Shown here piece by piece: positions 4,744 through 31,347 of a DNA stretch of 39,003 nt. Each line of letters starts with the position of its first letter. Within the stretch, counting starts at the first letter, position 1. A program made the position numbers and the translations under genes. The notes below the pieces were generated by a model. The model was not told the DNA's origin, searched no databases, and saw only the letters and a list, made by a program, of their open reading frames with translations. The DNA is from Deltaproteobacteria bacterium (GTDB lineage: Bacteria > Desulfobacterota > DSM-4660 > Desulfatiglandales > Desulfatiglandaceae). Where the stretch lies: NCBI GenBank assembly GCA_021163815.1, contig JAGGTJ010000158.1, forward strand, positions 1 through 39,003. Direction: 5' to 3'.

Positions 4744-6063
4744 ATGGCATCTATTTTAACATTCCCAAAAGGTGGCGTTCATCCGCCAGAGTCAAAGGAA
4801 TTGACGGAGCATTTGCAGATAGAAACTATGCCAATACCGTCAAAACTGGAAATCATACTTGGGCAACACATAGGGGCACCGTGTACACCAACCATTGAAA
4901 AACGTTCCAGCGTTGCTGAAGGAGATTTGATAGCCGATGTAACAAAAGGGCTGGGGGTTCCCCTGCATGCACCTGCCGCAGGCACAGTCAAGGCCTTTGA
5001 AAAATCGGCGCATCCTATCAGAGTAACTGCTCCATCAATCACGATTACAGTTGATCAAGAAGCAGCACCAAGGCAATGGGAGAGCTCTGAATGGCAAGAT
5101 CTTACATCAGAAGATCTGCTCAAAAAGGTTCACGACGCGGGTATTATTGGAATGGGTGGTGCAGGCTTCCCAACTCATGTCAAGTTGAATCCACCAAAGG
5201 ACAATCCTATTGACACATTACTTATTAACGGTGCAGAATGTGAACCTTATATAACAGCAGATCACAGATTGATGCTGGAATCAACAAAAGAGATTGTCGA
5301 AGGTGTCAAGATAATTTTAAAGATTCTTGGTATCAAAAACTGTTCGATAGGTATTGAAAAAAACAAGCCGGATGCAATAGAAGCCATGTCTGAGGTAACA
5401 AGGGCTGCTTCAAACAATGAATTCAACATCAAAGTTGCCCCTCTTGAAGTTAAATACCCCCAGGGCTCTGAAAAGCAACTTATTCAGACAATAACCGGAC
5501 GTAAGGTTCCCTCTATGGCATTGCCATCATCCGTTGGGGTTGTAGTGCAAAATGTGGCTACAACAAAGGCGATTTATGATGCGGTTGTTTTGGGAAAACC
5601 ACTGTATGAGAGAGTTCTGACTGTATCCGGCAGAGGAATTTCCAGACCAGCCAATCTGCTTGTTAAGGTTGGTACATCTGTCAGAGATATAGTGGATTTT
5701 TGTGGCGGCACCACCCCTGAACTTGCACGTATAGTGATGGGAGGGCCAATGATGGGTTTTGCAGTACCTACCATTGATATCCCTGTCACAAAAACAACAT
5801 CGTCGGTACTGTTTTTAACCGAAGAAGAGATTGATACCAGGCCACCCTCTCCCTGCATTCAATGTGGCTGGTGTCTTGAGGCATGTCCCATGGGGCTGGA
5901 ACCCAAAGAGATAGGGATCTATGTTGAAGGAGGTAAAGGCAACGACACTGAACAGTTTGGGGTCTTTGACTGTTTTGAATGCGGTAGTTGTGCCTATACA
6001 TGTCCTGCAAAACGTCCGTTGGTACAGTTTATACGGTTGGCAAAGATGCAGGCAAGACATTAA
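4744..6063 (+). CDS. rnfC: Rnf complex subunit RnfC
   Basis: RnfC is the peripheral subunit that exchanges electrons with NAD(H), using FMN and two [4Fe-4S] clusters. At 439 residues it matches the compact clostridial/archaeal-type RnfC and lacks the long alanine-rich tail of the proteobacterial form. It has the N-terminal RnfC barrel domain, the nucleotide/flavin-binding loops GMGGAGFPTHVKL (136-148) and NGAECEPYIT (162-171), and two ferredoxin motifs with cysteines 371/374/377/381 (CIQCGWCLEACP) and 410/413/416/420 (CFECGSCAYTCP). It opens an rnfCDGEAB-apbE cluster, the gene order typical of Clostridia and of several other anaerobes, rather than rnfABCDGE. A 235-base gap with a hairpin separates it from rnfD. 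Confidence 0.95.
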   Translation: MASILTFPKGGVHPPESKELTEHLQIETMPIPSKLEIILGQHIGAPCTPTIEKRSSVAEGDLIADVTKGLGVPLHAPAAGTVKAFEKSAHPIRVTAPSITITVDQEAAPRQWESSEWQDLTSEDLLKKVHDAGIIGMGGAGFPTHVKLNPPKDNPIDTLLINGAECEPYITADHRLMLESTKEIVEGVKIILKILGIKNCSIGIEKNKPDAIEAMSEVTRAASNNEFNIKVAPLEVKYPQGSEKQLIQTITGRKVPSMALPSSVGVVVQNVATTKAIYDAVVLGKPLYERVLTVSGRGISRPANLLVKVGTSVRDIVDFCGGTTPELARIVMGGPMMGFAVPTIDIPVTKTTSSVLFLTEEEIDTRPPSPCIQCGWCLEACPMGLEPKEIGIYVEGGKGNDTEQFGVFDCFECGSCAYTCPAKRPLVQFIRLAKMQARH

Positions 6064-6217
6064 AAAGGGAATTTCAGTTTTAAAACGTCAGATTACACCT
6101 AAAAAAATACCGGGCGCCTATTTTGAGGTTGTTAAGAGAAATAAACAATCCCTTAACATTGATGTCTTTAAACTGATATGGAGAAAAAACAAAAAAAGAC
6201 AAATAGTTAACTACTGA

Positions 6218-6269
6218 GCTGGTTTTCAATCCATTTCTCAGTTGTGTGTTTAATGCATTGAAAATCAGC
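6218..6269 (+). repeat. Inverted repeat in the rnfC-rnfD gap
   Basis: GCTGGTTTTCAAT (6218-6230) pairs with ATTGAAAATCAGC (6257-6269), giving a 13-bp stem with one G-U pair and a loop of about 26 bases. There is no U-tract after it, so it is not a typical terminator. It could be an RNA-processing or stability element between rnfC and rnfD. Confidence 0.45.
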
Positions 6270-6337
6270 CCAAATAAAGATTTACAAGGAGAGTCATCAT
6301 CGAAGCAAAAGTAACCAATAACCAGGCATCTAATCCT

Positions 6338-7351
6338 ATGAAGCTGTTGAGTGTATCTGTTTCTCCGCATGTCCGCAGTAAGGAATCGGTGGCAAAGATC
6401 ATGTGGACAGTTGTGGCCTGTTTAATGCCGCCTCTTGTCCTTTCGGTCTTTATCTTTGGTATACGGACATTGCTGATCACTGCAGTATCAGTGGCAAGTT
6501 GTATGGCAGTAGAGGCCATAAGTCAAAAATTATTGGGCAAACCAATAACCATCAAAGATGGAAGCGCTGCCCTGACTGGTGTTCTTCTTGCCTTTGTCAT
6601 CCCGCCGGGGGTATCGTTTTTTATACCTATACTTGGTGCTGTGATGGCTATATATATAGGAAAACAACTGTTGGGTGGGATAGGATACAATATATTTAAT
6701 CCGGCACTGCTTGGCAGGGCATTCCTTTTGGCAACATTCCCGGTGGCCATGACATCAGCATGGTTACCTCCTCTCCATAATGGAGCCATTTTTTCTTACA
6801 TGGGGAAGGGAATAGATGCCATTTCAACGGCGACCCCTCTGGCAATCATGAAAGAACATGGAATGGCAGCCTTCAATGCAGCATTTGGCCCTGCTTCCTC
6901 TGCGTATGGAAGTTTCTTTCTGGGGTGGAGACCAGGCTGTATAGGAGAAACTTCTGGTCTGTTGCTCGTATTAGGAGGCCTCTACTTGATGTATCGAGGT
7001 TATATTACGTGGCATATTCCGATTTCCATGCTTGGAACCATTGCCCTTTTGACATGGGTTTTTGGAGGAAAGACACTGTTTTCCGGAGATCCTCTGTTGG
7101 CAGTCCTGACAGGAGGCGCACTGTTGGGGGCATTTTTTATGGCAACGGATTATGTGACATCTCCAAGCAACAAAACAGCTCAGATTATCTTTGGTATTTG
7201 TATTGGTGCTCTAACTGTGTTGATCAGACTAAAAGGAGGATACCCTGAAGGTGTATGTTATGCTATTCTGTTAATGAATCCTATTAGCATAGCTCTTGAT
7301 GGATGGTTTAAACCAAAGCGTTTTGCTCCTCCGTTGGGAGGTGAAAAATGA
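6338..7351 (+). CDS. rnfD: Rnf complex subunit RnfD, flavinylated membrane subunit
   Basis: RnfD is an integral membrane subunit of the NqrB/RnfD family that carries covalent FMN. The 337 residues contain many hydrophobic helices. The N-terminal SVSPHVRS motif is typical of RnfD. The segment IDAISTATPLA contains the covalent FMN attachment site, most likely Thr166 in S163-T-A-T166-P. The coding frame remains open upstream of this ATG, and a strong AAGGAGAG (6286-6293) sits 5 bases before an in-frame ATC codon (6299) instead of near the ATG, so translation might begin 13 codons earlier. The first ATG has no good ribosome-binding site. Its end overlaps rnfG by ATGA, which indicates translational coupling. 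ApbE downstream is the expected flavinylating enzyme. Confidence 0.93.
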   Translation: MKLLSVSVSPHVRSKESVAKIMWTVVACLMPPLVLSVFIFGIRTLLITAVSVASCMAVEAISQKLLGKPITIKDGSAALTGVLLAFVIPPGVSFFIPILGAVMAIYIGKQLLGGIGYNIFNPALLGRAFLLATFPVAMTSAWLPPLHNGAIFSYMGKGIDAISTATPLAIMKEHGMAAFNAAFGPASSAYGSFFLGWRPGCIGETSGLLLVLGGLYLMYRGYITWHIPISMLGTIALLTWVFGGKTLFSGDPLLAVLTGGALLGAFFMATDYVTSPSNKTAQIIFGICIGALTVLIRLKGGYPEGVCYAILLMNPISIALDGWFKPKRFAPPLGGEK

Positions 7352-8244
7352 AAGATATAATTACCATAGTTGCACGTCTTACATTATCGTGTCTGATTGC
7401 TGCCCTGATTATGGGAACAACCTTTGTCTTTACAGAAAAGGCAAAAAAGGCAAATGAACTTGCACACGAAAAAAAGGTCATGCTTTCTCTGCTTGGCTTT
7501 TCAGAATCCAAACCTGTACCTGAAACCATATCATTTCATGATCTTTTCAGATATATTGTTACGATGAATGGGGACAGATTCATTGGATATCTGCTTCCAA
7601 CTACCGATAATAAAGGGAATTCTTTCTTATTTATTGTCATTGACAGTAATGGCAACCTTATTTTAAGGAAAAAGATTCCCCTTAGCGAAGAAGAAGTTAA
7701 CGATCCCAAAAAACGTGTCGAAATAATACAGACAACCATAGGAAATGACAAAGCAATAACTTTTGGGGATAAAATTACCGTAGTTACAGACAAGGGAAAA
7801 AGGAAAGCATATCTTTTGTCAGGCAAGTTTCCCGGTTACAAATCAAATATATCCGTTATGCTTGCCCTTGATCCAAAGATAGATATTATTGGCCTTGAAA
7901 TAATGGAGAATGAAGAAGATCCGGGTCTGGGTGCCGAGATATCCCAAAATTACTTTAAAAAACAGTTTATGTTCAAGCCTTTTAAGGCTATCAAAAAATT
8001 GGATGTTATTAAAGAACCTCTACCGGAAGATTATTTCAATGCATTGGAAGGCAAGCTTGATGAAGGACAGGCAGTTTCAATCATGAAAAAATATAAAAAC
8101 AGTAAGATATATGCACTTACAGGTGCAACTATTTCTTCACGTCGGGTTACCAACGGTATAAAGGCCATGACGGAGAAATTTGCCTATCGCATCAAGGTAT
8201 TGGATACCATATTGAAAAAAAATAATATATCTGTTCCTTTTTAG
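7348..8244 (+). CDS. rnfG: Rnf complex subunit RnfG, flavinylated
   Basis: RnfG is a membrane-anchored subunit with a covalently bound FMN on the outer face of the membrane. The 298-residue protein has one N-terminal membrane helix (about residues 8-28) and a soluble FMN-binding domain ending in LTGATISSRRVTNGI. Thr261 in T258-G-A-T261 is the expected phosphoester attachment site. The family motif EDPGLGAEI is also visible. The start overlaps the rnfD stop by four bases (ATGA). It is somewhat longer than the ~200-residue RnfG of E. coli because of a larger domain after the membrane helix. A 111-base gap without obvious signals follows before rnfE. Confidence 0.93.
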   Translation: MKDIITIVARLTLSCLIAALIMGTTFVFTEKAKKANELAHEKKVMLSLLGFSESKPVPETISFHDLFRYIVTMNGDRFIGYLLPTTDNKGNSFLFIVIDSNGNLILRKKIPLSEEEVNDPKKRVEIIQTTIGNDKAITFGDKITVVTDKGKRKAYLLSGKFPGYKSNISVMLALDPKIDIIGLEIMENEEDPGLGAEISQNYFKKQFMFKPFKAIKKLDVIKEPLPEDYFNALEGKLDEGQAVSIMKKYKNSKIYALTGATISSRRVTNGIKAMTEKFAYRIKVLDTILKKNNISVPF

Positions 8245-8355
8245 TAATCTGTGACTTATAAAACAAAGACCTTATAAAATTGAGGTTCATTGTGTGAATG
8301 AAAACAGGTTAATCCGATTGCCTTACCCTAAAATTATACGAAGAGGATAAAGAAC

Positions 8356-8970
8356 GTGGCAACTGACAAATCATATTTACAACTTGTTACAAATGGGATT
8401 TTTGAAGAGAATCCGATATTTCGGCTTGCACTGTCCATGTGTCCGGCAGTTGGTATTTCAACTACCGTTATGAATGGACTCATGTTGGGGATTGCGGTAC
8501 TGTTTGTTCAGGTATTTTCCAGCGTTACAGTTTCTTTGATCAAAAACTTTATTCATCCCCGTATCCGTATCCCAACCTATACCCTTATAATAGCAACCTG
8601 GGTTACGGTAATTGATTTGACTCTCTCAGCCTACTTTCCTCAGGCCTATGCCAAGATGGGCATATTCATAAAGCTTATTGTGGCATTTGCAATCATTACC
8701 ATGCGCCTTGAGGTTTTTGCCTGTAAAAAACCAGTAACAGCATCCTTTTGGGATGGAGTTGGAATGGGACTGGGTTTCATGTTTGGCATGGTAACACTTG
8801 GTTTTGTCAGAGAACTCTTAGGCTCAGGCAAGTTGTTGGGATACGATGTTCTTGGATTTAAACCTCTCCTGTTTTTTATTCTGCCCTGTGCCGGTTTTTT
8901 TGTAGTAGGATTGATGATGGGGTTTTTCAACTGGATCGAGGCAACGTATAAGAAATACATTACAAAATAA
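8356..8970 (+). CDS. rnfE: Rnf complex subunit RnfE
   Basis: RnfE is a six-helix membrane subunit of the RnfE/NqrD family which, together with RnfA, forms the intramembrane iron-sulfur site and ion path. It has 204 residues and a GTG start preceded by GAAGAGGA at suitable spacing. The first conserved cysteine is present (C29 in LALSMCPAVG). The second, in the family motif T-N-C-x4-R-x-E-x-F-A, is absent: the aligned segment here reads VAFAIITMRLEVFA, with Ala for Cys. A cysteine at position 123 (VFACKK) lies ten residues further on. Whether the metal site is altered or rescued by that residue is unknown. Fourteen bases separate it from rnfA. Confidence 0.92.
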   Translation: MATDKSYLQLVTNGIFEENPIFRLALSMCPAVGISTTVMNGLMLGIAVLFVQVFSSVTVSLIKNFIHPRIRIPTYTLIIATWVTVIDLTLSAYFPQAYAKMGIFIKLIVAFAIITMRLEVFACKKPVTASFWDGVGMGLGFMFGMVTLGFVRELLGSGKLLGYDVLGFKPLLFFILPCAGFFVVGLMMGFFNWIEATYKKYITK

Positions 8971-8984
8971 GAGGTTAATAAGAG

Positions 8985-9926
8985 ATGAAACTGATAAAAT
9001 ATTTTTTCATTCTGACTATAACCCTGTCTTTATGTGCCGTTAGTACTCTTTCAGAGGCAAAGGGATTGGTTTCAAATACCAGCTTTGCTGATCAGAACGG
9101 AATTGTAATTCATTTTTTCAAAAGTGTAGATTCTGCAACTGCATCTTCTTCTGAAAACTATTACGTGGTAGAAGAACAGGATCCTGATATTCGCATACCT
9201 GTTACAGACGTCAAACTGTCAAAAGATAATAAGAAGGTCGTTCTCAGGTTTGCTGAACCACTCAATACGGCAAAAAAATACAGAGTTACACTTTTAAATA
9301 TAGGTGGTGAAGAAAAAACAGTCTTTTCTGTAAGTAAGCCCTACGTTGGCTTTCTCTTTTCCATTCTGCTGGGAGCATTTTTAATACATAATTTTGTCTT
9401 TACCAAATACCTTGGTCTATGTGTTTTCTTTGGTACATCGAAAAAAAAGGCAACGGCAAAGGGTATGGGGGTAGTTTTTACAATTTGTATCGTGTTTGCA
9501 ACTTCCATAAGTTGGCTTCTGAATCAATATGTTTTAAAACCATATGACCTTACCTATCTCCAGATAATAGTATTTATCGGTTTGGTCTCCCTCACCGTAC
9601 AGGCAGTAGATACCATTTTACGAAAGATAAACCCTATTCTTTTTAAAGAGTTCGGTGTTTATTTGGTACTTGTTATTGCCAACTGCGTTATACTGGCAGT
9701 TCCCTTGATTATGGCAACAGAGGAATATAATTATTGGGAGACATTTATGTTGAGTCTTGGTGCTGGTCTTGGTTTTCTGCTTGCCCTCTATCTCATGGGA
9801 ATAGTAAGAGAACGTATGGAGCTGGCAGGAATACCTCCTACATTCAAGGGGTTACCTATTGCCTTTGTTCTTGCTGGACAGTTTGCTCTTGCCTTTCTTG
9901 GATTTTCAGGATTAAAGATATTTTAA
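8985..9926 (+). CDS. rnfA: RnfA with an N-terminal signal peptide and Ig-like domain
   Basis: The last 193 residues (about 121-313) are a complete RnfA, the six-helix partner of RnfE, with the conserved cysteines C146 (KYLGLC) and C234 (VIANC) that correspond to the NqrE/RnfA iron ligands. Before it is an extra ~120 residues: a signal-peptide-like segment (1-25, KLIKYFFILTITLSLCAVS) and a beta-rich domain (about 30-118). That domain contains KLSKDNKKVVLRFAEPL and YRVTLLNI, reminiscent of SbsA/SwmB-type Ig-like domains. The start has no alternative near residue 120 with a ribosome-binding site, and the frame is continuous. RnfA is known to have its N-terminus outside the cytoplasm, so an exported N-terminal domain is topologically sensible. 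Its role might be docking of an extracytoplasmic partner. Confidence 0.92.
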   Translation: MKLIKYFFILTITLSLCAVSTLSEAKGLVSNTSFADQNGIVIHFFKSVDSATASSSENYYVVEEQDPDIRIPVTDVKLSKDNKKVVLRFAEPLNTAKKYRVTLLNIGGEEKTVFSVSKPYVGFLFSILLGAFLIHNFVFTKYLGLCVFFGTSKKKATAKGMGVVFTICIVFATSISWLLNQYVLKPYDLTYLQIIVFIGLVSLTVQAVDTILRKINPILFKEFGVYLVLVIANCVILAVPLIMATEEYNYWETFMLSLGAGLGFLLALYLMGIVRERMELAGIPPTFKGLPIAFVLAGQFALAFLGFSGLKIF

Positions 9927-10031
9927 TAGTTTTATAAAAAATTTCAGTTGTACCCTGAATTTTGGGCGGATACAGATTAACTAATTTTAAAAATCTTAAC
10001 ATAATGCTGTAACAGGAGTCATCAAACAATT

Positions 10032-10910
10032 ATGGATCCTACATTAGTAAAAATGGCAATCGGAGGTATTGCCCTTCTTGGTTGCATAGGACTGTTCTTT
10101 GGTATAGGTTTGGCGCTTGCTGCGCACAAGTTCGCTGTAGAAACCAACCCTCTCGTGGAAGAGGTGTTAGAGGTACTCCCTGGGGCAAACTGTGGTGGTT
10201 GTGGATACGGTGGGTGTGAAGGATATGCAATGGCCGTTGTGGAAGATCCGGAAGTACCGCCCAATCGCTGTGTGCCTGGAAGGGAGGCAGTTGCAAAAAA
10301 GGTTGCCGAAATCACAGGCAAAAAAATGAGTGCGGTGGAGGATGTAATAGCTGTTGTACGTTGTTCAAAAACAGAGGGACAAGTGTCCCAGAAATATCAA
10401 TACATCGGATACCAAACATGCACGGCTGCCAATCTGGCGAACGGTGGGCCATCTGCCTGTCAATACTCATGCATAGGCTTGGGAGACTGTGCAAGAGCAT
10501 GTCCTTTTAATGCAATTGAGATAAAAGGAGGTTTCCCAGATATAGACCCGGACATCTGTGTTGGTTGTGGAACCTGTGCAAAGACATGCCCCAAAGGCAT
10601 CATAGAGATTCAAACCAAAAAGGCCCGTGTCTGGTTGCCATGTTCCAGTAAAGACAAGGGAAAGGAAGTTAAGGATGTTTGCAAGGTAGGATGTATTTCA
10701 TGCAAGATGTGCGTAAAGACTTGCCCTGCAAAGGCCATTACATATAAAGACAATCAAATACATATAGATCATAAGGCGTGTATTGAGTATGGCTCTGAGT
10801 GTAATGAAATCTGCGTGGAGAAGTGTCCAAGACACATACTGAGGATCTATAATCCAGATGCACAGAGGGCCGTTAATGCAAATAATGAACGAAAAATGGC
10901 AACCGCCTAA
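10032..10910 (+). CDS. rnfB: Rnf complex subunit RnfB, polyferredoxin
   Basis: RnfB is the ferredoxin-facing subunit that feeds electrons into the Rnf complex. The 292 residues begin with a membrane helix (about 8-31), then the RnfB-specific cluster with cysteines C54, C57, C62 and C80 (NCGGCGYGGC...C). Several ferredoxin-type motifs follow, including CIGLGDCARACP, CVGCGTCAKTCP, CISCKMCVKTCP and CNEICVEKCP. A GGAG at 10015-10018 lies upstream of the ATG. It lies between rnfA and apbE on the same strand. Confidence 0.95.
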   Translation: MDPTLVKMAIGGIALLGCIGLFFGIGLALAAHKFAVETNPLVEEVLEVLPGANCGGCGYGGCEGYAMAVVEDPEVPPNRCVPGREAVAKKVAEITGKKMSAVEDVIAVVRCSKTEGQVSQKYQYIGYQTCTAANLANGGPSACQYSCIGLGDCARACPFNAIEIKGGFPDIDPDICVGCGTCAKTCPKGIIEIQTKKARVWLPCSSKDKGKEVKDVCKVGCISCKMCVKTCPAKAITYKDNQIHIDHKACIEYGSECNEICVEKCPRHILRIYNPDAQRAVNANNERKMATA

Positions 10911-10932
10911 TTTTTTATAAGGGACCAATCGA

Positions 10933-11970
10933 ATGAACAATATCAATGAAAACAAGAGGATAAACAGACGTTCTTTCTTAAAGCTTTCAGGTTTATTAGG
11001 TGTCTCTACAATGGCATCCACAATAATGCCGGTAAAACCTGCAGAGGCCTTTTTGTTTAACCGTAAAGAGTACAAGATAAGTGAAATGCGTCTTGCAATG
11101 GGAACATTTGTAAGCATTACGGCAATACACAAATCCCGAAGTCAGGCAGAAGATGCGTTTGCTCAGGCGTTTGAAGAAATTAACAGGTTAACCTCCATAC
11201 TTAGTCGTTTTCAGGAGGAATCTCCTGTCTATGAATTAAACTCTACAGGAAAAATCAAAGGGATACCAAAAGAATTAAAAGATGTTCTTATTGATGCCCA
11301 AGCCCTATATCGCAGGTCTTATGGGGCATTTGACATCACGGTTAAACCGATAATAGATCTGTACAAGGAATGTTCAGACAGGGGTTATGATCCGGACTCT
11401 AATCAAATTGCCAATGTGTTGCAGCGTGTTGGTGGTAGCTACCTTAAATTGGATGGAAATTCTCTCTACTTTACACGTAGCAACATGGGAATTACCCTTG
11501 ATGGAATTGCAAAAGGTTATATTGTAGATAAGGTTTCATATATCCTGAAAAAGAATGGTATCAAAAATCATCTGATTAATGCCGGTGGTGATATACGTAC
11601 CAGTGGAACCGCAGCAAATGGTAAAAAATGGACCATAGCAATTCAGGATCCCCATAAACAGAGAAGATATCCTGATCTTATTCACATGAACAATGGAGCT
11701 GTGGCCACATCAGGAAACTATGAGGTATATTACGACAAACAAAAGGTATTTCATCATATTACCAACCCTCGTACGGGTCTTTCTCCTCAACAGTCAGTAA
11801 GTGTATCGGTAATGGCACCAACGGTACAAAAGGCTGATGCGTTGTCTACTACTGTTTTTGTTTTAGAACCACAAAAGGGCATAAATTTTATAAACAGCCA
11901 GCCTGAGTGTGAATGTTTTATCATTGAACATAATGGAATTATAAAACGCTCATCAGGATGGATAGGATAA
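10933..11970 (+). CDS. apbE: FAD:protein FMN transferase ApbE, Tat-exported
   Basis: ApbE transfers FMN from FAD to a Thr in RnfD and RnfG-type subunits. The 345-residue protein has a twin-arginine signal (NRRSFLKLSG, arginines 12-13) followed by a hydrophobic stretch and an AEA cleavage-like site near residue 38, consistent with export to the side where RnfG receives its flavin. Family signatures are EMRLAMGTFVSITA, DGIAKGYIVD, NAGGDIRTSG, HITNPRTG and ADALSTTVFVL. It starts 22 bases after rnfB and closes the rnf cluster. The 417 bases after it are repeat-rich. Confidence 0.95.
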   Translation: MNNINENKRINRRSFLKLSGLLGVSTMASTIMPVKPAEAFLFNRKEYKISEMRLAMGTFVSITAIHKSRSQAEDAFAQAFEEINRLTSILSRFQEESPVYELNSTGKIKGIPKELKDVLIDAQALYRRSYGAFDITVKPIIDLYKECSDRGYDPDSNQIANVLQRVGGSYLKLDGNSLYFTRSNMGITLDGIAKGYIVDKVSYILKKNGIKNHLINAGGDIRTSGTAANGKKWTIAIQDPHKQRRYPDLIHMNNGAVATSGNYEVYYDKQKVFHHITNPRTGLSPQQSVSVSVMAPTVQKADALSTTVFVLEPQKGINFINSQPECECFIIEHNGIIKRSSGWIG

Positions 11971-22398: not shown

Positions 22399-25167
22399 CT
22401 ATATTTTTTCAATTCGTACCGCACACACCTTGTATTCAGGGATTTTTGCCACAGGATCCAATGCAGCATTGGTAAGCCTGTTGGCCGCTGCCTCAGCGTA
22501 ATGGAACGGAATGAAGATAGCACCTTTTTGTGCCTGGCTGGAGATCTTTGCCCTTGCCTTGATACTACCCCGTCTGGATGCAACATTAAGCATGTCATTG
22601 TCCTTAATCTTGTAATACAGGGCGTCTTCCTGCGATATTTCCACAAAACACTCGGGGGCAAGCGCATTCAGACCTTCAGATTTCATTGTCATTGTACCGG
22701 TATGATAGTGGTATAAGATCCTGCCGGTGGTAAGATACAATGGATATTCGCTGTCAGGCAATTCATCTGGCGGGATATACTCAACTGCATGAAACAGACC
22801 TAAACCCCTTGAAAACTGTTCTTCATGTAGACGCGGAGTTCCTGGATGGTCCATAGATAGACATGGCCAGTATATACCATCAACCTCAATCCGGTCATAT
22901 GTTATGCCATGATATGATGGAGTAACCTCGGCTATCTCCCGCATAATATCCCTTGCATTACCGTACCGCATAGGATATCCCATCTTATCAGCTAGATCAG
23001 AGATTATTTTCCAGTCCTCCCGTGCATCTCCAGGCGGTTTTACCGCCCTTCGTACACGTTGTACCTTTCTTTCAGTGTTTGTAAATGTCCCATCTTTTTC
23101 CGCAAATGCAGCGGAGGGCAATACCACATTAGCCATACGGGCCGTTTCGGTAAGGAAGATATCCTGGACAACCAAAAAATCAAGGTTTTTTATGGCATCT
23201 TCGGCATGATTCAGATCCGGATCCGACACCATTGGATTTTCACCTATTATATAAAGGGCCTTCAGATCACCACTGTGGGCCATTTGCATCATGCCGGTGA
23301 CGGTGGCACCAACTTTGTCAGGCAGCTTTTCCACACCCCAGGCCTTCTCCATGCGGTTACGGACCGAGGGGTCATCTATCTTTTGATATCCTGTGTATAC
23401 ATTGGGCAAACCACCCATGTCACACGCCCCCTGAACATTATTCTGTCCCCTAAGGGGATTTACTCCCCCACCTTCAATCCCTACATTGCCGCACAGCATA
23501 GCCAGGTTAGCGAGGGATTTGACATTGTCCGTGCCGGTAATATGTTGTGTTATACCCATGGCATAAAATATGGAGGCGGCATTGGCCTGCGCATAAAGAT
23601 GTGCAGCCTCCACCAATTGATCCTTCGGTATTCCCGTAATCTTCTCTACACGCTCTGGTGTGTACTGTTCAACCGTTGCTCGCAGTTCTTCAAAACCTTC
23701 GGTACGGAACTCCACATATTCTCTGTCATACAGTCCTTCCTTGATGATAATATGCATCATCCCATTTATCCATGCCACATCAGTGCCCAGGGTCTGACGC
23801 ATCCAGATAGTGGCAAAACGAGTAATGGGAATCCTACGAGGATCCACCACGATCAGCTTGGTATCCGTAAAGGAAGCAACACGTTTTATATAGGTGGATA
23901 AAACTGGATGATTTTCTGTTGTGTTTGATCCGGTTATCAATATCACATCGGATTTTTCTATGTCCGAAATAGGGTTTGTCATGGCACCGCTTCCGAATGC
24001 AGCGGCCAGACCGGCCACTGTTGAAGAGTGTCAAAGCCTTGCACAGTGATCTATATTGTTAGTGCCTATCACCGCCCTAATAAATTTTTGTGCAAGATAA
24101 TTCTCCTCATTGGTAATGCGTGCGCTCGTGAAAAGCCCGATGGAATCAGGACCAAAGTCCCGTTTTATATCGTTCATCCTCTTTGCCACCAAATCCAATG
24201 CCTCATCCCATGTGGCTTCGTGAAATTCTCCATCCTTTTTGATCAACGGGGTCGTCAAACGCTCAGGATGAGCTACAAAGTCATATCCAAACCGACCCTT
24301 TACACAAAGGCTCCCAAGGTTTGGAGAGGTGCCTTCCACACCGGTAACCCTCTCTATACGATTATCTTTTACATGGAGGTAAATCTGACAACCTACCCCA
24401 CAATATGAACAGGTCGTTCTGACCTTCTTCATTTCGTTGACAGGTGTCCTTAATGCCATATCCTGCTTAGGCATAAGGGCGCCCACAGGACATACCTGCA
24501 GACATTCACCACAAAATACGCAATCCGAATCCTTCAAGGCCCTGTCTCCCCGGGTAATGATTTTGGATGTAGCACCCCTGTAACCGAAACTGATAACCTT
24601 GTTTACCTGAATCTCATTGCATACCTGGACACACCTGCCACAGAGGATACAGCGGGAAAAGTCCCTCACAATAAAGGGATTGACATCTTCAACATCGTAT
24701 TTGGGATTGACAGGCACGACATGATCCGGTTTGACTCTATACAGAATGGCAAGATCCTGTAGTCGGCAATCTCCATAAGCAGGGCAAAGATCACGGTGTT
24801 CCTCTATATCCAAGGCGTCAAGCTGAAAATCTGTCCACAAGCCCGCATCCAAACTCCTGGCAAGGCAGTTATGATCCCCTGAAGCGAGAAGTAATTCAAT
24901 ATTCATACGCCGGGCATTGATCACGGCAGGTGTATCGGTTTTCACCACCATACCGGGTGTTGCCTGAGTTGAGCATGATGCCAAGAGGGTCTTGACGCCT
25001 TCCACTTCCACCAGACATATCCTGCAGACGCCCGTGGGAGACATCCCTTTAAGGTAACAGAGAGTTGGGATATAGATGTCATTGCGGGTTGCAACTTCCA
25101 GGATGGTTTCCCCTGGGGTAAAGGAATAGTCTATCCCGTTTATATTTATTATGTTTTGAGGTTCCAT
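22399..25167 (-). CDS. fdhA: Selenocysteine-containing formate dehydrogenase alpha subunit
   Basis: This is an NAD(P)-linked Mo/W formate dehydrogenase of 922 residues if the in-frame TGA at 24031-24033 is read as selenocysteine (residue 379). The N-terminal part resembles NuoG/HoxU: [2Fe-2S] cysteines C37, C48, C51 and C65; a Cys-rich segment ending CPAYGDCRLQDLA; ferredoxin motifs CILCGRCVQVC (173-183) and CVFCGECLQVC (216-226). The molybdopterin domain begins with CSYCGVGC (253-260) and continues after Sec379 with HSSTVAGLAAAFGSGAMTNP. The residues around the TGA, N-N-I-D-H-C-A-R-L-U-H, match the Sec motif of FdhF-type enzymes, and a SECIS hairpin follows. It starts at 25167 with AAGGAGGG three bases before the ATG. 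Without Sec decoding it would look like two genes, 24031-25167 and 22399-24018. Confidence 0.93.
24000..24020 (-). promoter_or_regulatory. Bacterial SECIS hairpin of fdhA
   Basis: Minus-strand CAGTGGCC (24020-24013) pairs with GGCCGCTG (24007-24000) over 8 base pairs (one G-U), leaving a GGTCT apical loop. The loop starts 18 bases after the TGA codon, the same distance and the same GGUCU loop as in E. coli fdhF. This is the element that SelB would bind to insert selenocysteine. Confidence 0.9.
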
Positions 25168-29764: not shown

Positions 29765-30283
29765 TTATGTCGTTTCAGAGTCAGAAGATTCGGGATTATT
29801 TACATTCTCTATATCATCAGATGCCTTTTCTTCCGTCTCTGTAATATTGTCATCTTTTACAGTCAACTTGCTGTCTTTCGTTGATATTTTCTCGGGAACT
29901 GTTTTTTTCTTAGAAGAGGACAGATCATCACGAGGTATCAATTGAACTATAGAAACAGGAGCGGCATCACCTTTCCTGACACCCTTTTTAATTATTCGAA
30001 TATATCCCCCCTGTCTTTCAAGATAACGATCCTTTAATTCCCCGAAAAGCTTATAAGTCACGGGTTTTTCTCTAATGTAGGCCATAGCGAGCCGTCTCGA
30101 ATGCAAATCACCTCTCTTGGCCAAGGTGATCAATTTTTCAGCAATTGGCCTAATCGCCTTTGCCTTGACATCTGTAGTTTCAATTTTTTCAAATTTAAAC
30201 AATGAAGTCACCATATTTCTGAACATGGCCTTACGATGACTTGGATTTCGGCCAAACTTTTTCCCAGCTTTCTTATGCCTCAT
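29765..30283 (-). CDS. rplQ: 50S ribosomal protein L17 with an acidic C-terminal extension
   Basis: Residues 1-117 are a normal bL17 ([20 protein letters not shown], then [20 protein letters not shown]). A further ~55 residues form a low-complexity tail rich in Ser, Asp, Glu and Lys ([20 protein letters not shown], ending SSDSETT). Usual bL17 lengths are about 115-130. The start shares one base with the rpoA stop (TAATG), so it is translationally coupled to rpoA. Confidence 0.97.
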
Positions 30284-31347
30284 TAGCTTAAATCCTCTGT
30301 TTTTTTCTTTTCCTCTGTTTCTGCCTCTTCCTCTGTTTCTGCCTCTTCTGCCTCATTTGACGTGGCAGCCGGTGGAAAATTATCTAACTTCATTCCTAAA
30401 GATAAACCCATTTCAGCCAAGATCGTCTTTATTTCATTAAGGGACTTCCTGCCAAAATTTTGTGTTTTCAGCATTTCGCTTTCTGTCTTTTGTACCAGTT
30501 CTCCAATCAGTTTGATGTTTGTATTCTTTAAACAGTTGGCTGAACGAACAGACAATTCAAGCTCTGAAACGGGCCTAAAAAGATTCTCATTTAATTGTTC
30601 CTCTTCCTCTTCTTCCTCTTCCGGCTCAGGTTCTTCATCAAAATTAATAAAAGGATTCATCTGTTCCTTTAATATCTTTGCAGCATAGGCAACGGCATCT
30701 TCGGGAAGAACCCCTCCGTCTGTCCACACCTCAAGAGTCAACTTATCATAATCACTGATCTGACCAACCCTTGCGGTTACAACATTATAATTAACCTTGA
30801 TAATAGGAGAAAACAGTGCATCTATAAATATAACCCCAAGTTCATGCTTAGAGGGCTTGTTTCTCTCGGCAGGAACAAAGCCTTTCCCCAATCTGACAAC
30901 CATTTCCATATCCAAGGCACCATCACCAGTAATAGTAGCTATATGGTGATTCGGATCCAGGATATCAACCAGATCATGAGTATCAATATCAGCAGCCGTT
31001 ACCTCTCCCTCCTGATCTTTATGTATATGTATTACTGCCTCCTCCGAGGATTTTAATCTAAGCCTCAGGCTTTTAAGGTTTAATATGATATCAGTCACAT
31101 CCTCCAGCACACCTGGAATAGAAGTAAATTCATGTATAGCTTGATCAAATTTAACACTAACAACTGCACTGCCTTGAAGAGATGAAAGTAAAATTCTCCT
31201 TAATGAGTTTCCTATCGTTATACCAAAACCCTTTTCCAAGGGCTCACAAACAAATTTACAATAAGAATTCGAATGAGTACTCTCATCGAGTTCTATCCGT
31301 TTTGGTTTTATTAATTCTCTCCAATTCCTGCTTATTAAATCTGCCAA
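30283..31347 (-). CDS. rpoA: RNA polymerase alpha subunit
   Basis: RpoA of 354 residues has the assembly domain (residues 1-~233; [20 protein letters not shown]) and the DNA-binding C-terminal domain (~257-330) with the UP-element contact motif VRSANCLKN. Between them is an acidic linker with eight consecutive glutamates (243-250), and the protein ends in a Glu-rich tail (332-348) encoded by an imperfect 18-bp tandem repeat near 30310-30350. Usual length is about 310-340. It lies downstream of rpsD after a 214-base gap in which I see no clear signal. Confidence 0.97.

Follow-up and report, generated by a model that had tools for sequence, protein, structure and literature searches.

The rnfA gene at positions 8985..9926 of the forward strand of the window, as the analysed stretch of 39,003 nucleotides is called here, encodes a protein of 313 amino acids in which a complete RnfA follows an export signal and an immunoglobulin (Ig)-like domain in one uninterrupted frame, a layout that is shared by approximately 100 loci. 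By its sequence this extension marks a distinct Rnf subtype in Thermodesulfobacteriota. The preferred reading, which is given a probability of roughly 50 %, is that in this subtype the exported Ig domain and a lengthened RnfG act as an outer module of a complex that would still work as a redox-driven ion pump. The earlier note on this DNA had recognized the Ig-fused RnfA, which stands, and had missed two changes linked to it, the long RnfG and, as the most striking of all, the loss of a [2Fe-2S] cysteine from RnfE.

The six Rnf subunits are encoded together in the window (4744-10910), in the order rnfCDGEAB-apbE, and rnfA starts 14 bases 3' of rnfE. All genes of the operon are on the forward strand: rnfC (4744..6063, 439 aa), rnfD (6338..7351, 337 aa), rnfG (7348..8244, 298 aa), rnfE (8356..8970, 204 aa), rnfA, rnfB (10032..10910, 292 aa) and apbE (10933..11970), coding for the flavin transferase that loads FMN onto RnfD and RnfG (PMC12174285). 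The RnfC protein scores above the TIGR01945 cut-off and has the NADH/FMN domain and two [4Fe-4S] motifs. The operon does not encode a Na+-NQR, since RnfB and RnfC are present in place of NqrF (FAD/[2Fe-2S]) and NqrA. Directly upstream of rnfC, one other locus of the subtype harbours a FAD synthetase/riboflavin kinase gene (L065, 3813-4745) and two Desulfobulbales loci harbour a dihydroorotate dehydrogenase-like gene (L033, 3912-4892; L052, 3830-4918); neither gene is found directly upstream of rnfC in the window.

The membrane core of the window RnfA (residues 121-313, 9345..9923) is readily recognized. From residue ~121/124 to the end it matches PF02508 (E=2.6e-45), residues 124-312 align with RnfA of Acetobacterium woodii (9eri_A, E=2.7e-45), and a structural alignment of these two proteins gave 43 % identity. 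The usual RnfA is a membrane protein of ~190 residues without a soluble domain; the window protein departs from this by its length, signal and Ig domain, and its core remains below the NCBIfam rnfA cut-off (186 vs 229 bits). Nothing was found in favour of a translation start near residue 120 or of an assembly error. From approximately codon 61 to codon 161 ATG, GTG and TTG are all absent, and initiation at the RnfA core would depend on a rare start codon; moreover, the same fusion occurs in ~100 loci with the extension conserved as protein. This explanation was rejected, its probability being practically nil: the fusion is real and is due neither to chance nor to misassembly.

The layout with extended RnfA, about the spread of which the earlier note had asked, is shared by 24 genomes from the same family and order, by ~80 named records and by 6 genomes of the phylum that are more distant. 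Searching the complete genomes of relatives yielded full-length orthologues in these 24, plus one fragment, with 52-65 % identity in the extension as well as in the core. About 80 named loci with extended RnfA were obtained as the best 80 of 139 matches in a scan of GTDB contigs, the carriers including Desulfofustis glycolicus DSM 9705, Desulfopila aestuarii DSM 18488 and Desulfobulbus elongatus DSM 2908, besides uncultured relatives. Among 395 evenly sampled genomes of the phylum, 13 from five families, the window's own included, harbour extended RnfA; two further matches (L122, L123) are ordinary short RnfA proteins and were not counted. These genome searches covered the window's phylum, Thermodesulfobacteriota. 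Many genomes carrying extended RnfA also encode a second, ordinary RnfA without extension (~35-40 % identity). The matches listed in a search of plasmids were ordinary RnfA, one long match representing the adjacent NqrD-NqrE of Paracoccus.

The first ~25 residues of the window RnfA (residues 1-25, 8985..9059) contain two Lys, a hydrophobic stretch and an SPase I-like site, SEA/K, and read by eye as an export signal. Such SPase I-like sites are also found in Desulfobulbales members. Within the window's own family, a lipobox is found instead in most members (e.g. LIGGC, LLSGC); a strict pattern, which misses some, detected it in 37 of 102 relatives. With SEA/K and no lipobox, the window RnfA itself is not a lipoprotein by this measure, while the lipobox of the relatives predicts a lipid-bearing mature N-terminus and thus an Ig domain tethered at both ends. 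In the window RnfA and in its relatives the cleavage site always lies N-terminal to the Ig domain. Signal-peptidase cleavage had been expected to decide whether the domain is retained, but it has no such bearing: the site precedes the domain, which runs straight into helix 1, so that a cleaved signal leaves the domain on RnfA. An N-terminus outside the membrane is the established topology of RnfA. The added domain, as was proposed before, is expected to face outward, in agreement with the inverted topology of RnfA and RnfE (PMC12174285) and with a signal peptide that fits an N-out helix.

The exported beta-rich domain noticed earlier was found again, with its mature part now delimited to about residues 28-116 (89 aa, 9066..9332). 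An AlphaFold model of RnfA, based on an alignment of 47 sequences and of moderate confidence overall (mean pLDDT 72.7), shows a beta-sandwich at residues 29-116 (pLDDT ~80) and RnfA helices starting at residue 120, with ~4 residues between the domain and the first helix. In Foldseek searches the N-terminal half of the model matched S-layer Ig domains of SbsC (4uj6, 2ra1) and Sap (8rx2), with E values of 6e-06 to 3e-04, which identifies an Ig-like fold, and the C-terminal half matched RnfA/NqrE (9eri_A, TM-score 0.77 by target length). The S-layer domains (Big_5) superimpose with an rmsd of ~2-3 Å over 88-98 columns; unlike these, the window domain is a single domain on a membrane subunit and not part of a surface array. 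It also stays below the gathering score of Pfam Big_5 (19.3 vs 23.6 bits), and only 6 of 47 family members have a Big_5 match at E<=0.01. Mean pairwise identity is 42 % in the Ig domain compared to 78 % in the RnfA core, but the PDI loop (residues 67-69) is nearly invariant and Phe34 is kept as well.

A domain that evolves so much faster than the core, and of which the anchor differs between SPase I-like and lipoprotein signals, might serve as an aid in assembly, driving N-out insertion of RnfA or anchoring it by lipid without a catalytic role. This is unlikely, as classical RnfA inserts without an Ig domain, and as the domain is present in every member of the subtype seen and tracks exactly with the changes in RnfE and RnfG.

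The change in RnfE concerns C108 of the A. woodii protein, assigned as a [2Fe-2S] ligand (PMC11889175), which in a residue-level alignment to 9eri_E corresponds to Ala112 (codon 8689-8691) of the window RnfE. In the RnfE proteins of the subtype, the window included, this position is Ala (92/94) or Ser (2/94), compared to Cys in 11/11 classical RnfE; a separate count gave Ala or Ser in 90/90 subtype sequences versus Cys in 15/15 classical ones including NqrD. Beside the lost ligand, the N107 equivalent is always Phe in the subtype, the helix proline P102 is replaced by Lys in 91/94, and RnfE V106 and RnfA T110, T111 and P107 are changed as well. The first RnfE ligand (C29 in the window) is kept, the C25 equivalent being retained in 94/94, and so are both RnfA ligands (C146, codon 9420-9422, and C234, codon 9684-9686), with Cys at the positions equivalent to C25 and C113 in 103/103. 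Two RnfA cysteines and one RnfE cysteine remain of the four that make up the RnfA/RnfE [2Fe-2S] site, and the centre is on this evidence altered, with only three of its canonical Cys ligands; the complex is accordingly classed as an Rnf variant rather than as a canonical Rnf. According to PMC9588780 the four-cysteine region is strictly conserved in Nqr and Rnf, and A. woodii mutants of these cysteines showed no growth and no activity and had lost two irons (PMC11889175). Given these mutants, a centre with three Cys may differ greatly from the known one, or may not exist at all.

Other cysteines were considered as substitutes and rejected. RnfE C123 is Cys in 72/90 sequences and Ser or Ala in the rest, and thus not obligatory. 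The helix cysteines RnfB C18 (44/~51) and RnfG C15 are near-conserved but not universal, and the latter also occurs in some classical RnfG proteins.

RnfG is likewise changed. Where an extended operon has a complete rnfG, the protein is about 285-332 aa long, versus 190-212 aa in classical operons; in the window the extra beta region covers ~residues 50-135. The AlphaFold model of RnfG (pLDDT 90.5) resembles NqrC in overall layout, with 8evu_C and 7xk3_C as best structural matches. A long G subunit is therefore not unique to the subtype, NqrC being similar in length as well. Further likeness to Na+-NQR lies in the homology of NqrE and NqrD to RnfA and RnfE. However, NqrD keeps both cysteines, NqrE has no Ig domain, and Na+-NQR works with NqrF and NqrA.

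The remaining functional residues tested are retained. The covalent-FMN Thr is present in RnfG (T185, 63/63; T258-G-A-T261 in the window) and in RnfD (T156, 71/71), as are RnfG Y113 and the riboflavin-site residues of RnfD (the conserved N, and D249 in 70/71); the flavin residues of the window RnfD are kept. The Fe-S cysteines are kept in RnfC, and nearly all in RnfB. The ion pair R67-E115-E88 persists as R-E-D, with R67 and E115 of RnfE unchanged and RnfA E88 replaced by Asp in 103/103. The change is thus confined to the RnfA/E centre and the residues around it. Compared to the Rnf complexes of A. woodii and Clostridium tetanomorphum (9eri, 7zc6), the window complex shares the RnfA/RnfE fold, the cofactor motifs of RnfC, RnfD, RnfG and RnfB, and three of the four intramembrane cysteines; it differs in the signal and Ig domain of RnfA, in an RnfG that is ~100 aa longer, and in an RnfE without the C108 ligand and N107.

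The changes in RnfA and RnfE are strictly linked. The variant RnfE motif was searched for as a DNA pattern in the same 395 genomes. All true RnfE matches came from genomes that have extended RnfA, and the other matches were not RnfE; one genome with extended RnfA (G202) escaped the pattern only since its motif reads RME (L119). The RnfA cores of the extended type form one clade (SH-aLRT 97) with a long stem. Two genomes, G047 (94 % complete) and G040 (90 %), have no Rnf or Nqr besides the operon with extended RnfA and variant RnfE. The subtype is therefore probably functional and independent of the RnfE of a second operon; borrowing of RnfE from a classical operon is excluded in both, as far as these genomes are complete.

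The loss of C108 throughout, together with the six altered neighbours in RnfE and RnfA, could also be taken to mean that the iron centre in the membrane has been lost, the complex being a paralogue that has decayed or been repurposed and does not pump by the Rnf cycle. Decay is hard to reconcile, however, with three invariant cysteines, a preserved ion pair, retention of the flavin and [4Fe-4S] residues tested, and two genomes in which this is the sole Rnf/Nqr, and it is considered quite improbable.

The rnf operon of the window (4744-11970) has possibly been acquired by horizontal transfer. The rpoA gene (30283-31347) is 69-73 % identical to those of the relatives' lineage and 53-58 % to those of Desulfobulbales. 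The window RnfA, a long branch in the tree, groups, unlike rpoA, with the Desulfobulbales branch (SH-aLRT 96), and it shares with that branch a signal of the SPase I type and a somewhat shorter domain.

For the preferred reading, of a working ion pump with an enlarged outer module, the following mechanism can be envisaged. The cleaved export signal would place the S-layer-type Ig domain outside the inner membrane, where the linker of ~4 residues would keep it attached to RnfA helix 1 at the outer end of this helix. The complex is predicted to be most likely a redox-driven pump that couples ferredoxin:NAD+ electron transfer to ion transport, with electrons presumably passing from ferredoxin via RnfB, the RnfA/E centre, the RnfG flavin at the outer face, RnfD and RnfC to NAD+. 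To take up the electron, RnfG docks in the RnfA/E cavity that opens outward (PMC11889175), and the N-terminal helix of RnfA is near RnfG (PMC9588780; docking and helix anatomy also in PMC12174285). From this anatomy and the short linker we infer that the Ig domain would lie at the entrance to the cavity, which is where the flavin domain of RnfG docks. Together with the longer RnfG it would then most likely build up an enlarged outer module, by which RnfG is positioned or restricted. In a coevolution test based on only 44-58 sequences, pairs between the Ig domain and RnfG showed no enrichment (0.14-1.14 times expectation); in the same test the control pairs RnfA-RnfE (2.7-4.9 times) and RnfA-RnfG helix (1.8-3.5 times) were enriched.

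The earlier note had suggested that the domain might dock a partner or a structure of the cell envelope; coevolution with RnfG was not detected, and multihaem cytochrome genes are rare near these operons. Rnf complexes with a cytochrome provide a precedent for electron exit at the outer face. In a more specific form, the Ig domain would dock a separate periplasmic partner, such as a c-type cytochrome or an envelope protein, with electrons leaving at the outer face. Ig-like domains are common binding modules, and a variable domain around a nearly invariant PDI loop would suit such a role. However, an ORF with at least three haem motifs lies near only 2 of the 80 named loci (best 80 of 139), which led to rejection of a cytochrome partner; no conserved partner gene adjoins the operon, the dihydroorotate dehydrogenase-like and FAD synthetase genes being only sporadic; and RnfC retains its NADH/FMN domain. 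Docking of a partner is therefore regarded as doubtful, and the pump with an outer module is maintained.

Most relatives belonging to the family and order of the window carry a TGA within the rnfB frame, exactly where the ferredoxin-like cluster motif, GAQ-U-GGCG[FY], has its first Cys (L108, L069, L090, L105 and ~30 others); the window equivalent is a Cys (C54, codon 10191-10193). At this site TGA was counted in 39 matches and a Cys codon in the others; TAA and TAG did not occur. The RnfB of these relatives looks like a selenocysteine protein in which Sec replaces an Fe-S ligand. The selB gene was present in 20/20 genomes tested, including those of the Cys type, and is thus non-discriminating; a SECIS test on rnfB showed a hairpin 3' of the TGA that is largely invariant, without covariation, and no Rfam match. 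The main-text table of PMC5029168 lists RnfC among selenoprotein families, and RnfB is not seen in that table. Elsewhere in the window, a formate dehydrogenase-like gene (22399-25167, reverse strand) is interrupted by a TGA, which was read as Sec (HCARLUHS, U379); the window's organism thus probably uses selenocysteine, with a Cys in its rnfB. Tentatively, and at somewhat less than an even chance, the whole may be read as a widespread Rnf subtype with a non-canonical three-Cys iron centre, a dedicated outer module and, in one set of relatives, a selenocysteine at the RnfB cluster from which this centre is fed. The fourth ligand would then be a residue other than Cys, or absent, and the transmembrane electron step would be unlike that described for Rnf and Nqr.

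Two Rnf types, split by RnfB size, have been reported in Desulfococcus multivorans and Desulfobacterium autotrophicum; all six Rnf1 subunits were detected as proteins, and both Rnf types of D. multivorans were detected (PMC5109826). For Rnf1 its passages on Rnf describe the size of RnfB, and neither an RnfA extension nor loss of an RnfE cysteine. The Rnf1 with small RnfB in that study may be the same as the subtype with extended RnfA. Classical rnf operons with a very large RnfB (685-719 aa), of the sulfate-reducer type in that study, were observed in related genomes (L124-L128). A literature search that reached a minority of the subscription journals gave no description of RnfA with an Ig domain or another N-terminal extension, of a cysteine-less RnfE or of a three-Cys Rnf; the only Ig-like match, PMC12718326, concerns a toxin. 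As far as searched, the branch of Rnf with extended RnfA is apparently unnamed.

The [2Fe-2S] site that four cysteines form between RnfA and RnfE is considered central to Rnf and Nqr and strictly conserved in them; here one ligand is missing from 94 sequences, also in genomes without another Rnf. A natural subtype that always lacks this ligand allows it to be asked directly which parts of the model for electron and ion transfer are obligatory. The Ig domain and the long RnfG would offer a handle on how docking of RnfG is controlled at the outer face, and for annotators the extension provides a marker that separates two kinds of Rnf in bacteria of the sulfate-reducer type.
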